Shown here one piece after another: positions 1,065-12,366 of a DNA stretch of 50,748 nucleotides; the stretch's first letter is position 1; every line of letters starts with the position of its first letter. A program made the translations under genes and the position numbers. The notes under the pieces were generated by a model that was given only the letters and a program-made list of their open reading frames with translations, made no database searches and was not told the DNA's origin. This DNA is from Kandleria vitulina DSM 20405. Its GTDB lineage: Bacteria; Bacillota_I; Bacilli_A; Erysipelotrichales; Coprobacillaceae. Location: positions 1 through 50,748 of the forward strand of contig NZ_JNKN01000013.1 of assembly GCF_000702065.1 (NCBI RefSeq), read 5' to 3'.

Positions 1065-2786
1065 TTAGTTTTTAGTCTTACGATAAATAAATAATAGCAC
1101 CCCAGCAGATACAATAAATAACATTTCAATAAATAAAATCTCAGTATGATCTCCAGTTTCTGCTACTGATTGACTCACTTTACCATGTTTAGCTTTTTTA
1201 TTTGTTTCATTAGCAGTTGTGCCTTCTCCAGTATTGTTACCTGTTTCAGCTTTAGGACCATTTTCATTACCATTTTCAAAATTCTCAGTGTTAGTAATGA
1301 CATAGCCTTCTTCTTGATCACCAGATATTTCTGTCGTATATCCTTCTACTGGTTCTTCTTCTACAGTATACTCAATCTTCTTTCCATTTTTATATTCTGG
1401 AATATCATCAAAAGTATAAGTCCACTTGTTTTCTTCATTAAGTGTAACAGACTTTACTTTTTCTCCATCAGCGAGAAGATTTACTGTAACACTATCTTTC
1501 TTTTCACCATTCCATTTCTTAGTGACTTTAACTGAAGTCTTAATCGCTTCATTGGTGATTGTCTTGATAACTGCAGAACCATCATTTAGGTTAACAGTAA
1601 GAACTTTATCATTCTTGATATAACCAGTTGGTGCTTTTGTTTCTTCGATAGTATACTCACCACTTACTAATTTTTGAGAGATTGCTTCGCCATCTTCATC
1701 AGTAGTAAGCTCATATGTTTTTCCTGTCTTTACATTTTTAATGACAAATGTAGCATCCTTTAATCTTGTTTCTCCATTATTTGCATCTACTTTGATAATC
1801 TTGATCTTATTAGTAAGATCTCCATCACCATTACCACCAGCATCAGAAGAACGATATCCTGCTTTATGAACCCAGATATCCTTTTCTGATTTTAATGTCG
1901 CTTTATTTTGCAACAAAGTAGAAGGTGTATATGTAGATTTATAAGTTAAATAATAAGATGTACCTTCCATTTTTCCTAGATGTAAAGTAAATGATGAACA
2001 ATCCTCAGAGAAAGAGAGCTTATTTTCAGTAGTTACTGTCTTTCTAGAAACAATTCCACCTTTTGCATTAAACTCTACTTCATATAATTTGAAGCTATCT
2101 TTAATATATGCTTCTCCTGAATCACCAAGGGTATCTGTTAATGTAGCATCATCTAATGTACGTTTACAATGATTAATACGCATTGACCAATTTGCCCTTG
2201 TAGGATCCATATCTTTAGAACCCCATTTACATAATACTTCATTCTTTAATTCAGTAGGACCAGTAATCTTTATTGTCTTAGAAGAAACCTTCCCATTAAC
2301 AGTAATTTCAAAAGTATTTTCTTCGCCTACCTTAATTTCTTTAGTATCAAAATGAGCAGCTAAATAAATATTACCTTTTACATTATATCTATCATTCACA
2401 TAATCAGTAAAAGTCACTCTGACTTTTCCACCACCACTTGTGTATGGAGTCACATGTGCATTACCAATAATTGTCTTGCCATCATTCGCATAGAGATGAA
2501 AATCAGTATGTGATGAATCAGTTGGAAAGATCATTTGATCAGGTAATGTGATATCAAAATAATCGCCTTCATGAAGATTAGCACCATGAGCACTTGCATC
2601 CCAATCCATACTTAAATAAAAGATGTTAGTTTCATAAACCGCACTCGCTTCTTTCTTTGTCCAATTAAGAATACGAAACTGAGTGATATCTGTCTTTACT
2701 TCTTTTGAAGAAGCAGAGATAGGTGTAATGAATCCTAAAGCTACAAGAAAGCTTAGCATCATACTTAAAAAATATTTTTTCTTCAT
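1065..2786 (-). CDS. Cell-wall-anchored adhesin with SpaA and Cna-B domains
   Basis: This is a secreted surface protein of 573 residues from the preferred ATG at 2786 (AGGAAATGGGAA upstream); an in-frame ATG at 2834 would only lengthen the signal peptide. Order: signal peptide (1-25, ending ISASS); two MSCRAMM-like Ig-fold adhesive domains (about 28-160, with EGDYFDITLPDQM, and 170-315); a SpaA/prealbumin-type domain (about 330-420, ATFVIKNVKTGKTYEL and EYTIEETKAPTGY); a Cna-B-type domain (about 421-510, VKVTKKWNGEKKDSVTVNLL and YTVEEEPVEGY); a Gly/Asn/Thr-rich linker; and a sorting signal (VAETGD, hydrophobic stretch, RKTKN tail). The motif differs from canonical LPXTG. The E of the EETKAP and VEEEP strands could support isopeptide bonds, as in such domains generally. 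It likely binds host matrix or other cells; the ligand cannot be read from the sequence. Confidence 0.85.
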   Translation of the reverse strand: MKKKYFLSMMLSFLVALGFITPISASSKEVKTDITQFRILNWTKKEASAVYETNIFYLSMDWDASAHGANLHEGDYFDITLPDQMIFPTDSSHTDFHLYANDGKTIIGNAHVTPYTSGGGKVRVTFTDYVNDRYNVKGNIYLAAHFDTKEIKVGEENTFEITVNGKVSSKTIKITGPTELKNEVLCKWGSKDMDPTRANWSMRINHCKRTLDDATLTDTLGDSGEAYIKDSFKLYEVEFNAKGGIVSRKTVTTENKLSFSEDCSSFTLHLGKMEGTSYYLTYKSTYTPSTLLQNKATLKSEKDIWVHKAGYRSSDAGGNGDGDLTNKIKIIKVDANNGETRLKDATFVIKNVKTGKTYELTTDEDGEAISQKLVSGEYTIEETKAPTGYIKNDKVLTVNLNDGSAVIKTITNEAIKTSVKVTKKWNGEKKDSVTVNLLADGEKVKSVTLNEENKWTYTFDDIPEYKNGKKIEYTVEEEPVEGYTTEISGDQEEGYVITNTENFENGNENGPKAETGNNTGEGTTANETNKKAKHGKVSQSVAETGDHTEILFIEMLFIVSAGVLLFIYRKTKN

Positions 2787-2972
2787 TATAATTTCCCATT
2801 TCCTTTCTAAACACAACTGTAAGGTAAATATCAATTTATTTACGATACAATTTAAAAACGTTTACTAGAAACTATAATGCCTATAAATATATTTATCAAC
2901 CTTATTGCTTTTGAAGTTCCAAATATTTTACTTACATGTGACATATATGACTATTATTTGACAATTTTATGA

Positions 2973-5129: not shown

Positions 5130-5507
5130 CTATTCTTCCCATGAAAGAACGCCAGTTTTTACGGCTTCTTCATAACGTGAAATCTTAAAATTAAGCTTGT
5201 TTAATGTTTCTACATATTGATCAATCTTATTTTGTACTTCAACTCGTGCTTCAATAAGAAGATCTCTTCTCGCTTCGAGAGTATTATCACCTTCCTGATA
5301 AAGTTTCACATACTCAATAAGCATCTCAACTGGAACACCAGCACTTCTCATACAAATTGCATTCTCTACCCAGCTGATATCTTCTTCTGAATAATCACGA
5401 ATACCACCCTTAGTTCTTTTTACTTTAGGAATAACTCCTACTCGTTCATAGTATCTAAGAGTATCTGCACTAATATCAAATTGTTTACATACTTCCTTTA
5501 TTGTCAT
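5130..5507 (-). CDS. MerR family regulator, AdhR/NmlR-like
   Basis: This 125-residue DNA-binding regulator has an N-terminal MerR winged helix (TIKEVCKQFDISADTLRYYE, then RVGVIPKVKRTKGGIRDYSEED) and a C-terminal dimerisation coiled coil (about 75-118). It lacks a large effector domain. Cys52 sits in AICMRSAGVP, the position of the single redox cysteine described for Bacillus subtilis AdhR. Cys7 is the only other cysteine. The start at 5507 has AGGAGG six bases upstream. It heads the operon with the alcohol dehydrogenase and flavin reductase and has a classical MerR promoter, so autoregulation with aldehyde sensing through Cys52 is likely. Confidence 0.9.
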   Translation of the reverse strand: MTIKEVCKQFDISADTLRYYERVGVIPKVKRTKGGIRDYSEEDISWVENAICMRSAGVPVEMLIEYVKLYQEGDNTLEARRDLLIEARVEVQNKIDQYVETLNKLNFKISRYEEAVKTGVLSWEE

Positions 5508-5528
5508 GGCATTCCTCCTTATACAATA

Positions 5529-5559
5529 ACTATACTCCTTAGAGTTAACTCCAAGTCAA
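5529..5559 (-). promoter_or_regulatory. MerR-type promoter with 19-bp spacer and operator dyad
   Basis: On the minus strand the -35 TTGACT (5554-5559) and -10 TATAGT (5529-5534) are separated by exactly 19 bases. That long spacer marks promoters activated by MerR-family twisting. The spacer holds a near-perfect dyad, CTTGGAGTTAACTCTAAGG, like operators known for AdhR/NmlR regulators. Confidence 0.88.
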
Positions 5560-5632: not shown

Positions 5633-5653
5633 GTTCTTCATTTTAATTGAAGT

Positions 5654-5769
5654 ACTTCAAAATCAACTTCAATATCACTTCAAAGTCAACTTCAATATCA
5701 CTTCAAACAAACTTCAATTACTTCAAAGTCAACTTCAATGTCACTTCAAACAATCTTCGATTACTTCAA
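5654..5769. repeat. ACTTCAA heptamer array, copy 1
   Basis: Ten exact ACTTCAA heptamers and one degenerate copy (TCTTCGA at 5754) start at 5654, 5666, 5677, 5689, 5700, 5711, 5720, 5732, 5743 and 5763. Steps are 12, 11, 12, 11, 11, 9, 12, 11, 11 and 9 bases. Steps of 12-11-11-9 form a 43-bp higher-order unit. The first heptamer completes a perfect palindrome, TTGAAGTACTTCAA (5647-5660). Near-helical spacing looks like stacked protein-binding sites. Confidence 0.9.
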
Positions 5770-5770
5770 A

Positions 5771-5798
5771 TAAAAAGAAGACCGTGATTGATCTTCTT
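5771..5798 (-). terminator. Terminator of the COG2865-like gene
   Basis: AAGAAGA / TCTTCTT with a 10-base loop, then TTTTTA on the minus strand. It overlaps the stop codon of the 5797-7239 gene and is nearly identical to the terminator at 7335-7362. Confidence 0.85.
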
Positions 5799-7239
5799 AA
5801 CTTAACATTATTAATTCTTGGTTAGCTTTATAGTAATTAGCTCTTGCGACTTTACTCTTTTCTAAGTAACCATTACTTACAAGGTTCTCTAAAACCTGTT
5901 TTCTTAAATATGATGAATCAGCCATTCCTAAATAATCCGCAATTTCAGATACTTTTCGTGCATGATAATAACAGAAAGATAATACTTTTTCATCATGTTC
6001 TGTTCCATTTTTGATTGGTGGAATAATTAAATCTGGATATTTATTATCAGTAACTCCTTCAATATAAGTTAAATCGGGAAGTACTAACGTAAAATGATCA
6101 GATGATGAATAAATATACGGCTTATGTGATTCGTTAGCATTTTCATATTCTTCTGTGATTTTATCAAAGCCAGTACCTGCAGATTCCATGACGTTACAAG
6201 CAACAAGGATACTAGATATTAACTCATTTCTTCTTTTTGAAATAATACCAGTTAAATCATATGTCTTCCCTATTTTCTCTCCTCTATAAAAAGAACCAGG
6301 AGAAGAAATTTCAAGTCGATCTTTAAACATATCCAATTGTATCTGTGTTCCATCAAGATAATAATCTCTATGCGCAATCGCATTGATTATACCTTCAAAT
6401 AAAGCTCTTTCAGGATAAGCTTCAATATTAATTCTGCGATCACCTTTTTTTATTATTGAATAGTTCATTCTCTGTTTAACAAAATCCATAAGAGAATTGA
6501 TGATATCTATAATATTTCCGGAATACTTTTTTAGAGTTACAATGCGTTCACTTCCCTTATTTGTACCTGCGAAAGCCAAACATTGTGAAGCAGTTTTTCT
6601 ATCACTGTAATCATCCATAAACAATAAAGCTCCATTAAGTAAATAACCATTTTCATCCATAAACCCCATAGATTTCAAAGCTTTCTCTGATAATTCTTTA
6701 CCTTTATTATGAGATTTATAAAATTCTTGTAACTTTGTAAATTTACTAGAATCATATTTTACATCTGATACTAAAAGATCATATTGTGTATTCTTACTTT
6801 GGATACTCATTTGAATAATCTCTTCATAAGTAGCTCCATTAGTATAACCATCTCTCCTCATAAAAATAGAGGGGATGGATTTATATCGCAAGATGACAGG
6901 TTTTACATTTGATTCTAATACATTTATTTTAATCACAAAACGTTCCTTATCTCTAACTGTATAAGGTATGAATTGTATTTGAAGTTGTGGTCTTGGGGTC
7001 AAATGCTCATTAACCATATTATTGAAATAATTACGTTCATTATCTGCATCTTTTTTATCAAAACCAATTAGTTTATTAGTTTTATCTTCAACACCAATAT
7101 AAAATTGACCACCTTGGGCATTCGCAAAACCCGCAATACTTTTTAGCCATCCAACAACATCATCTCTATTTAACTTACCCTTACACTCAAATGTATTATC
7201 TTCAAGTCTTACTTCACCAATTACTTCTTCTAGAAACAT
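5797..7239 (-). CDS. AlbA_2 / HATPase_c_4 ATP-binding putative DNA-binding protein (COG2865-like)
   Basis: This 480-residue protein has the usual three-part build. An N-terminal Schlafen-like AlbA_2 domain (about 10-130) shows FECKGKLNRDDVVGWLKSIA and AQGGQFYIGVED. A GHKL ATPase-like HATPase_c_4 region (about 275-350) has EGIINAIAHRDYYLDGTQI and DRLEISSPGSFYRG. A winged helix (about 405-470) has ARKVSEIADYLGM and RKQVLENLVSNGYLEK. Such proteins are annotated as transcriptional regulators or RecG-related; several AlbA_2 proteins act in phage defence. GAGGGTGG lies upstream of ATG 7239. The gene sits between two ACTTCAA arrays, and the array upstream of it is a good candidate for its own operator. 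Biochemical role unknown. Confidence 0.85.
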   Translation of the reverse strand: MFLEEVIGEVRLEDNTFECKGKLNRDDVVGWLKSIAGFANAQGGQFYIGVEDKTNKLIGFDKKDADNERNYFNNMVNEHLTPRPQLQIQFIPYTVRDKERFVIKINVLESNVKPVILRYKSIPSIFMRRDGYTNGATYEEIIQMSIQSKNTQYDLLVSDVKYDSSKFTKLQEFYKSHNKGKELSEKALKSMGFMDENGYLLNGALLFMDDYSDRKTASQCLAFAGTNKGSERIVTLKKYSGNIIDIINSLMDFVKQRMNYSIIKKGDRRINIEAYPERALFEGIINAIAHRDYYLDGTQIQLDMFKDRLEISSPGSFYRGEKIGKTYDLTGIISKRRNELISSILVACNVMESAGTGFDKITEEYENANESHKPYIYSSSDHFTLVLPDLTYIEGVTDNKYPDLIIPPIKNGTEHDEKVLSFCYYHARKVSEIADYLGMADSSYLRKQVLENLVSNGYLEKSKVARANYYKANQELIMLS

Positions 7240-7272
7240 AAAAATCCACCCTCTTTCTTCTAAATTAAGTTT

Positions 7273-7333
7273 ACTTCAATATCACTTCAAAGTCAACTTC
7301 AATGTCACTTCAAACAAACTTCAATTACTTCAA
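7273..7333. repeat. ACTTCAA heptamer array, copy 2
   Basis: Six ACTTCAA heptamers start at 7273, 7284, 7296, 7307, 7318 and 7327 (steps 11, 12, 11, 11, 9). The last five copies follow the same 12-11-11-9 order as the end of copy 1, and the adjoining terminator is also shared. The array occupies the leader of the COG2865-like gene, ending about 35 bases before its start codon. Confidence 0.9.
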
Positions 7334-7334
7334 A

Positions 7335-7362
7335 TAAAAAGAAGACCGTGGTTGATCTTCTT
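7335..7362 (-). terminator. Terminator of the DUF2971 gene
   Basis: AAGAAGA / TCTTCTT (7339-7345, 7356-7362) with a T-run on the minus strand, just after the DUF2971 stop codon. It differs from the 5771-5798 terminator by a single loop base. Confidence 0.85.
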
Positions 7363-7365
7363 ATA

Positions 7366-8043
7366 TTAAATAATTTTATATCTTCTTAATTCATCTTCAA
7401 AACTAAATTCATTATCTTGCTCAAAGGCATATTTAGAACTCTCTTTAATTTTAAATTTGCCAACTTTAATCTTTCTTGAATGATTTTGATTATAATCATA
7501 GATTACTTTTAATACTTGTTTATAGTTATCTTCTTTGAATGTCTCACATCCAAAGAAGATGCTTTGAACTTTTATTTTATAGAAAACCAGATTGTCTATT
7601 ATTTCCCATTGATTAGAGTCATGTTCTTCTAAATCAAATACTGCTCTTATTTCATTTTCATACTGCCACTTTTTATCTTTATGATAAAGTCTTTCATAAT
7701 CAGAAGAAATCTTGTCATAGCCAATCTTGTTTTCATAATTGACTTTTCTTAATAGATTAGATGATTCAAAAGTAGAATCATAATCTTCTGGTAATACAAA
7801 ATGAATCATGCATCCTCTATGTCCATCCGCATAATGTCCCCACATAAGTTTTGAGTTTCTACTGAAGGAAAAACAGGCAATACGATATCTTCCTTTCCCA
7901 TGTTCATCTATTCTTTCCCATTCAAATGGATCATTTAGTAGTTCACAAGGACAAGCATATACACCATGATCAAGGATGCATTTGAAGTTATTGATATTTT
8001 TCAAATTTGTATACTTATAAATTGATGATCTTTTACTAGCCAT
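7366..8043 (-). CDS. DUF2971 domain protein
   Basis: This 225-residue cytoplasmic protein carries the DUF2971 signature: YKYTNLKNINNF at the N-terminus, ELLNDPFEWE (about 40-50), IACFSFSRNSKLMWGHYADG (about 62-81) and GCMIHF. DUF2971 proteins are widespread in accessory and phage-defence neighbourhoods, but no enzymatic activity is established. An ATG at 8043 is chosen because AAAGGAGCACT precedes it; an ATG 21 bases upstream lacks such a site. The gene has its own terminator and is followed by the array that serves the COG2865-like gene, so the two may be independently controlled parts of one cassette. Confidence 0.8.
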   Translation of the reverse strand: MASKRSSIYKYTNLKNINNFKCILDHGVYACPCELLNDPFEWERIDEHGKGRYRIACFSFSRNSKLMWGHYADGHRGCMIHFVLPEDYDSTFESSNLLRKVNYENKIGYDKISSDYERLYHKDKKWQYENEIRAVFDLEEHDSNQWEIIDNLVFYKIKVQSIFFGCETFKEDNYKQVLKVIYDYNQNHSRKIKVGKFKIKESSKYAFEQDNEFSFEDELRRYKII

Positions 8044-8753: not shown

Positions 8754-9474
8754 AAGCTACTCCTAATAGTTTTTTTACAAAAGGAGTAGCAGGATGTGCT
8801 TTTATATGATCTGGTGTATCAAATTGCTCAACTCTTCCTTTATCCATAATTATCACTTTATCTCCAAGCTTAAATGCTTCATTGAGATCATGAGTTACAA
8901 ATATAAATATTTTATTTCCATTTTTATGGATTCTTATCAATTCATCTTGAAGATGTTCTCTTGTAATAGCATCAATTGCGCCAAAAGGTTCATCAAGCAA
9001 TACAATATGAGGATCAGCAGCCAAGGCTCTTACAAGACCAACTCTTTGTTGCTGGCCACCAGAAAGTTCTCTTGGGTATCTGTTTTTATATTCTTTAGGA
9101 AGATCTATCATTTCTAAAAGCTCATCTACTCGCTTATTGATTCTATCCTTTTCCCACTTTAACAATTCAGGAATTGTCGCAATATTTTCAGCAATGGTCA
9201 TATGAGGAAAGAGTCCTACTTGTTGAATAACATAACCAATGGTACGACGAAGTGCGACACCATCTACATCATTGATGTTCTTATGATCAATAATTATTTC
9301 TCCTGAATCAATATCATGCAGCTTATTAATTGCCTTAATAAGCGTTGTCTTGCCACATCCTGATGTACCTAGAACAGTAATAAGTTCTCCATCATTGATT
9401 GTTAAATTAATATGGTCCAATGCCGGATAAGAGCTATTTTCATATTTTTTATAAACATCTTTTATTTCAATCAT
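8746..9474 (-). CDS. Osmoprotectant ABC transporter ATP-binding protein, no CBS domains
   Basis: This 242-residue ABC ATPase powers the Opu importer. Walker A is GTSGCGKTTL (about 33-42), the signature LSGGQQQRVGLVRAL (about 138-152), Walker B IVLLDEPFGAID (about 158-169) and the switch His VTHD (about 193-196). Typical OpuCA/OpuBA proteins extend to 370 or more residues with tandem CBS domains that sense ionic strength. This one ends near residue 242 without them, so gating must differ. The gene begins 2 bases after the permease at 9477-10097. Confidence 0.93.
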   Translation of the reverse strand: MIEIKDVYKKYENSSYPALDHINLTINDGELITVLGTSGCGKTTLIKAINKLHDIDSGEIIIDHKNINDVDGVALRRTIGYVIQQVGLFPHMTIAENIATIPELLKWEKDRINKRVDELLEMIDLPKEYKNRYPRELSGGQQQRVGLVRALAADPHIVLLDEPFGAIDAITREHLQDELIRIHKNGNKIFIFVTHDLNEAFKLGDKVIIMDKGRVEQFDTPDHIKAHPATPFVKKLLGVAYD

Positions 9475-11952: not shown

Positions 11953-12366
11953 TTATAAATCAAAACTTACATTATTTTGATCATTGAGATTGCTAATACT
12001 GACATGAACATCATCTAAAGTAAATGGCATCACAAGTTCTCGTATATGATCATACTTCTGCGATAATATTTCACTATGATCAAATAATTTATCCCTTAAA
12101 TACACTTCATTCACAAATCTCACTTTGCCGCTTATTCGAATCCATTCTAGATCTTTTCTTGATGCGACAGTTATTTCACAATAGGGATTAACACTTAATT
12201 CCTTATAAGTTTCACTTCCCCTGATAACATCAAAATAAAGCTTTCCATTTTCTTCAAACTTAAATTCAAAAGCCTTTACTTTTGGTTTTCCATCTAGTCC
12301 AATAACACCCAAGTACTGCATAGGATATTTCTTTAACATCTGAACTGTTCTTTTTAATTTATCCAT
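11953..12366 (-). CDS. Pyridoxamine 5'-phosphate oxidase-like FMN protein
   Basis: This 137-residue split-barrel protein of the PNPOx-like family starts MDKLKRTVQMLKKYPMQYLG at ATG 12366; AGAGAGAAAG precedes it, whereas the ATG 18 bases upstream has no clear site. Typical features are GVIGLDGKPKVKAFEFKFEE, LYFDVIRGSETYKEL and NPYCEITVASRKDLEWIRIS. Small members of this family usually bind flavin and are not true pyridoxine oxidases. It is the first gene of the operon with the quinone oxidoreductase and Opu transporter, and faces the LysR gene. Confidence 0.82.
   Translation of the reverse strand: MDKLKRTVQMLKKYPMQYLGVIGLDGKPKVKAFEFKFEENGKLYFDVIRGSETYKELSVNPYCEITVASRKDLEWIRISGKVRFVNEVYLRDKLFDHSEILSQKYDHIRELVMPFTLDDVHVSISNLNDQNNVSFDL

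Follow-up and report, generated by a model that had tools for sequence, protein, structure and literature searches.

A helically phased TTGAAGT array as the putative autoregulatory operator of a Schlafen-type gene in Kandleria vitulina and its homologues

What is the function of two arrays of a seven-base word located on either side of a single gene of Kandleria vitulina DSM 20405, and which protein might read them? The stretch analysed, hereafter called the window, comprises 50,748 nt (GCF_000702065.1, contig NZ_JNKN01000013.1, positions 1-50,748). The word reads ACTTCAA on the plus strand and TTGAAGT on the minus strand, on which the gene, its promoter and the terminators are all located. 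Along the minus strand a DUF2971 gene (7366-8043, PADLOC PDC-S31-like) is followed by a terminator, array A, the AlbA_2 or Schlafen-type gene of 480 aa (5797-7239), a second terminator, array B and a MerR-family gene. Array A (7273-7333) consists of six exact heptamers, with plus-strand starts at 7273, 7284, 7296, 7307, 7318 and 7327 and a spacing of 9-11-11-12-11 in the reading direction. Array B (5647-5769, minus strand) contains ten exact heptamers, starting on the plus strand at 5654, 5666, 5677, 5689, 5700, 5711, 5720, 5732, 5743 and 5763, and a degenerate unit, ATCTTCG, near 5754, with one unit in inverted orientation closing the far end (5647-5653). These heptamer positions recover the counts, the spacing and the 12-11-11-9 order common to both arrays that had been given in the original prediction, and the approximately three differences claimed for the last 69 bases turn out to be exactly three mismatches between 7294-7362 and 5730-5798.

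ACTTCAA occurs 34 times in the window, compared with 13.9 +/- 3.7 times in shuffled sequences. A phased-triple pattern has 11 matches in the whole 2.1-Mb genome, every one of them at the Schlafen locus, and the reversed control pattern has none in the whole genome; the two arrays flanking the Schlafen gene are not a chance occurrence. The terminator said to be joined to each array was found as a hairpin on the minus strand in both places, but each copy belongs to its upstream gene: the intrinsic-terminator-like hairpin directly ahead of array A (7339-7362) closes the DUF2971 gene, and its near-identical copy (5775-5798) overlaps the stop codon region of the AlbA_2 gene. Similarly, array A does precede the Schlafen-type gene, as had been proposed, but it is not mainly a transcribed leader, since it lies in the DNA downstream of a terminator and contains the promoter from which the following gene would be transcribed.

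The product of the gene is a member of the COG2865-type prokaryotic Schlafens, composed of AlbA_2, HATPase_c_4 and winged-helix (wHTH) domains. The Pfam search detected SLFN_AlbA_2 (PF04326, residues 13-133, E 6e-16, above the cut-off) and HATPase_c_4 (PF13749, residues 297-387, E 5e-19), and gave no HTH match. In the AlphaFold2 model (pLDDT 87.6) a helix-helix-helix-strand-strand succession at about residues 416-472, encoded at 5824-5994 on the minus strand, has the form of a C-terminal winged helix, the predicted recognition helix of which spans residues 443-455 according to DSSP of the model. The nearest solved structures found with Foldseek are 3lmm, the closest PDB match, and the Schlafens SLFN11/13/14. 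Among 70 aligned homologues, E13, E18 and D52 are conserved in 68-69, and E282 and N286 (ExxxN), which we take to be the GHKL N-box, in 69. The tRNase site of SLFN13 is E205/E210/D248 (PMC5862951), an acidic triad to which E13/E18/D52 may correspond by spacing and fold only. As compared with the eukaryotic SLFN11/13/14, the window protein has a single AlbA_2 unit, to which a GHKL-type ATPase and a wHTH are joined, and its RNase activity is putative.

Homologues were collected by protein similarity alone, so the array played no part in their selection. At least three phased units are present just upstream of the start codon in 84 of 85 loci of one set and in 34 of 37 more distant loci; arrays are thus present, and not missing, at the homologous genes of relatives, a result that speaks for the original proposal, which their absence would have contradicted. 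Pairs of GAAGT separated by 10-12 bp were found in 77 of the 81 upstream regions of the first set, whereas they were present in 4 of 1620 dinucleotide-shuffled sequences and in 6 of 4706 segments of 200 nt taken from elsewhere in the same loci. In 80 loci the arrays comprise a mean of 6.7 units, 378 units are exactly TTGAAGT, and the heptamer is kept, with linkers nearly free to vary. Out of 456 array intervals, 321 measure 11 bp and 115 measure 12 bp. The homologous proteins are mostly 51-73% identical to the window protein in the 70-sequence alignment, and the maintenance of the array despite this divergence indicates selection, not recent copying.

The hosts belong to the Lachnospiraceae, Selenomonadaceae and Erysipelotrichaceae, and their phyla include Bacillota and, by the names that submitters gave to metagenome bins, Spirochaetota, Actinomycetota, Chloroflexota and Pseudomonadota. 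Among phage and plasmid records mostly distant relatives were found, with one close plasmid copy: the array and the gene are carried by the complete plasmid pCY360 of a named strain, Butyrivibrio proteoclasticus B316 (WP_013282674.1). No relatives were found on the viral contigs searched, and a class-level search around a Lachnospiraceae genome returned the query genome only, which indicates that the gene is rare per genome. The array is not a feature of all COG2865 proteins, as 11 homologues of about 30% identity are devoid of any array of any motif.

A sigma-70-type promoter, TTGAC(A/T) followed after 17 bp by TAnnnT, is embedded in the arrays. A strict -35/-10 pair was found inside the array in 63 of 81 homologue upstream regions, almost always in the form TTGAAGTTGAC(A/T)TTGAAGTnnnnTTGAAGTAnnnT, where the -35 is made in the conserved 12-bp gap and the -10 begins in the last base of a heptamer. 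In the window, the -35 element TTGACT (7296-7291, minus strand) is located within the 12-bp gap of array A and is separated by 17 bp from the weak (4/6) -10 element TAAACT (7273-7268), which begins in the final base of the last heptamer. In most loci one unit is located between the -35 and the -10 and another abuts or overlaps the -10, an arrangement that argues for occlusion of RNA polymerase. An inverted unit is found at one or both array ends in 59 of 79 loci; a control word is found in 4 at each end.

Judged from this sequence evidence, array A is probably a cooperative autorepressor operator of the Schlafen-type gene, read by the gene's own product. Each TTGAAGT would be a half-site for one winged helix of that product, and the 11/12-bp spacing would align neighbouring copies along one face of the DNA, thereby allowing cooperative side-by-side binding. 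A filled array would then shut out RNA polymerase, as the -35 occupies the 12-bp gap, with one unit between the boxes and another abutting the -10, and the gene would repress itself. Through autorepression, little of this standalone tRNase-like protein, which is probably toxic, would be present until a signal, perhaps nucleotide or RNA binding during phage infection, releases it from the array. On this reading the product is a putative standalone defence-type RNase.

The weak -10 of the window, TAAACT, is a point against autorepression, and it would suit a product that binds the array and activates its own promoter. Most units are located upstream of the -35, a position from which activators can work, and positive feedback, e.g., following infection, would be a workable strategy for an inducible defence gene. 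Activation is nevertheless unlikely in view of the units placed between the boxes and at the -10 in most loci, and of the many array promoters close to consensus (TTGACA-17-TATAAT), which would need no activator. The same geometry bears on the idea that the repeats act in RNA, as a leader or as RNA-binding sites for AlbA_2: the AlbA_2/Schlafen domain does bind RNA in eukaryotic relatives, but transcription from the array promoter would start beyond most of the units, which precede the -10, and an Rfam search was without a match, so such a role has next to no likelihood.

The arrays occur essentially nowhere else in these genomes. Exact triple matches were found in 33 of 45 gene-carrying genomes, and in each of them all the matches are on one contig near the gene. 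In the reverse test, covering 295 genomes of the order, TGAAGT triples were present in 11; the five genomes with at least four triple matches (G000, G045, G146, G159, and G177) are all gene-positive, and the remaining six have one to three chance-like matches with no gene nearby. The TGAAGT repeats at L027/G259 were first read as an unrelated interspersed repeat, until the set of GTGAAGT-type operators made L027 a variant operator. A GTGAAGT cluster similar to the L027 operator is found at G259:C356:5479-5506 (L159) with no Schlafen gene within 1.5 kb, and it might be an operator orphaned when the gene was lost.

For the 129 genes directly adjoining about 75 homologues, every family listed has at most 4 entries, which characterises the Schlafen-type gene as standalone. 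The top families listed for these neighbours include no BREX families, no Par families are among the neighbour families listed, and neither an integrase regularly adjoining the gene nor a conserved neighbouring regulator was found. A conserved defence-island context was rejected, the neighbours comprising few defence families and many housekeeping genes, and so was a conserved DUF2971-AlbA_2 pair: the association with DUF2971 is not a general feature, being limited to the window and one weak case outside it. In two loci (L071:5708-6982 and L080:5812-6651) a second, distant Schlafen-type paralogue adjoins the array-bearing gene.

Helically phased DNA could serve any oligomerising protein, and a separate host regulator or nucleoid protein might bind the array, though nothing direct points to one. 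The array accompanies the gene in different families and reported phyla, does not occur in other parts of the genomes and has no conserved regulator beside it; moreover, changes in the heptamer track the recognition helix of the Schlafen-type protein, all of which makes a separate binder very improbable. The altered heptamers occur in phased arrays of homologues of 33-47% identity: TAGAAGT in L196, L207, L210-L214, and L119; GTGAAGT in L027, L200, L203, L204, and L206; ATGAAGT in L106 and L205; and TGTAGT in L201 and L202. When 90 proteins with less than 90% identity were compared, position 441 was occupied by D or N in 73 of the 75 loci of TT type and in 1 of the 15 others. In the window this residue is D441 (codon at 5917-5919, minus strand); it immediately precedes the recognition helix, at its N-terminus, and covaries with bases 1-2 of the heptamer. 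When label-different and label-same pairs were compared at equal overall identity, column 441 came out on top among all columns of the protein (excess 0.66, z = 5.0), with the covariation still partly tied to phylogeny and about nine label changes available.

The switches are located in separate places of the tree: D is replaced by Y in L106 and N by A in L196, and L026 is back to TT with D; the GT clade carries P at this position, and the TA clade V, L, I, or P. Two exceptions are L119, which combines TAGAAGT with N441, and L209, which combines TTGAAGT with P441. Columns 408, 129, and 335 are also high in raw mutual information. As evidence for reading of the array by the winged helix of the gene's product, the covariation is strong but, because phylogeny is incompletely removed and L119 and L209 deviate, not final. 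The conservation of the arrays, their enclosure of the promoter, their restriction to the locus and this coevolution lend strong support to the proposal that the stacked sites serve a cooperative regulator, which is probably the winged-helix protein encoded by the gene itself.

Two further operator layouts were encountered among the divergent homologues. In L026, a distant homologue (37%), the TTGAAGT units alternate at 12 and 20 bp, giving a 32-bp period, i.e., three helical turns; the layout differs, yet the units are still on one face of the DNA. In the sister clade L200-L206 and L027 the operator is of another style, in which direct GTGAAGT/TGTAGT units are interspersed with inverted ones, e.g., GTGAAGTTTTACTTCAC.

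Array B retains a -35-like TTGACT without a -10 and is a promoter-less satellite copy. Secondary arrays of the same orientation are present in a minority of loci only, downstream of the gene in the window, G314, L083, G300, and G313, and upstream in L087 and L113. In the downstream arrays of the window, L083, G300, and G314 the -35-like word is kept and there is no good -10; in the L083 satellite the -10 was removed by the loss of about one unit. Promoter-less satellites near, and not ahead of, the Schlafen gene are located at L083:4126-4200, L151:11597-11649, L152 (reverse) 7263-7293, and 5647-5769 of the window. It is also worth mentioning that L150 (G313) contains two more arrays within 7 kb of the gene, at 8984-9047 and 12155-12279, one with 12 units and one directly ahead of a dockerin-like ORF; they may form a small local regulon.

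Satellite arrays may be duplication relics, decoys or looping partners. Array B would be a duplicated satellite with binding units and no -10 that titrates or bridges to the protein, unless it is a relic. As direct repeats, the arrays could also be recombination or mobility elements permitting excision, exchange or cassette-like insertion, a suggestion with which the downstream arrays listed above and the scattering of the family over phyla would agree. The flanking-repeat layout is, however, not general: a repeat on both flanks is found only in a minority of homologous loci, and the majority do not have the layout of an excisable cassette. No integrase or conserved partner is regularly found beside the gene, and neither the strict promoter geometry nor the coevolution with the wHTH is expected of a recombination site, which leaves this role a distinctly low probability.

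The satellites would acquire a different meaning if, besides being an operator, the array were a track to which molecules of the Schlafen RNase dock side by side, forming an inactive ATP-dependent filament. The silencing molecules would then be a stored pool freed by a phage signal, with release occurring, e.g., when AlbA_2 binds RNA or the nucleotide state changes, and promoter-less satellites such as array B would enlarge the store. Repressor, sensor and effector would, if this were true, be one polypeptide on one DNA array, a scheme that we consider conceivable but rather doubtful.

An autorepressor operator composed of phased heptamers resembles several known systems in part. The Omega (ParB-pSM)/parS system of pSM19035 employs non-palindromic 7-bp units, direct and inverted, which are cooperatively bound and overlap the promoters they control (PMC9499535). 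The Schlafen locus likewise has a heptamer array overlapping a promoter, with binding here predicted. Omega, a ribbon-helix-helix (RHH) protein with a ParA partner, has contiguous WATCACW heptads (7 bp) and controls several promoters, whereas the Schlafen locus has a wHTH protein as the predicted binder, one unit per helical turn and one promoter. In ParR/parC the repeat is 11 bp long and is placed around the par promoter. ParR of plasmid R1 binds direct-repeat sets as an array, in two sets of five (PMC4949242); that system relies on the actin-like ParM and an RHH adaptor, and the Schlafen locus is without par genes.

Nearest in protein type are the proteins combining a Schlafen RNase, a minimal histidine kinase and a wHTH that PMC12839542 presents as widespread defence-linked backup effectors. 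These COG2865 Schlafen effectors have the same domain order as the window protein, but they are BREX-linked in many genomes, whereas the window gene is standalone, with its own promoter and no conserved neighbours; an operator array is not among the features described in the passages cited. The original prediction knew of no described system with this array layout, and an open-access literature search for TTGAAGT repeats, phased arrays at Schlafen genes and Schlafen autoregulation found no description of one. While the protein type and architecture are already known, the phased operator array at Schlafen genes is the new element. A hardly characterised, widespread group of bacterial Schlafens thereby gains a putative DNA target, with residue 441 as a candidate determinant of specificity, and a probable mode of control. 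A single-protein system, in which a predicted repressor is also a probable RNase effector, would join the few heptamer-array regulators, here with helical phasing, and may indicate how a standalone defence nuclease that could harm its own cell is restrained where no antitoxin accompanies it. The array can also serve as a sequence signature to find and subdivide Schlafen genes in metagenomes.

Other parts of the window contain genes of different kinds. The MerR-family gene downstream of array B (5130-5507, minus strand) is preceded by TTGACT, a 19-bp spacer with a dyad (GAGTTAACTC) and TATAGT (5507-5555), which is a typical MerR-type autoregulated promoter, and beyond this gene an iron-dependent alcohol dehydrogenase gene and a flavin-reductase-like gene are located. 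Two related genes are found at 386-2834, the complete one of which (1065-2834, minus strand) encodes a surface protein of the Cna_B/SpaA/collagen-binding type.
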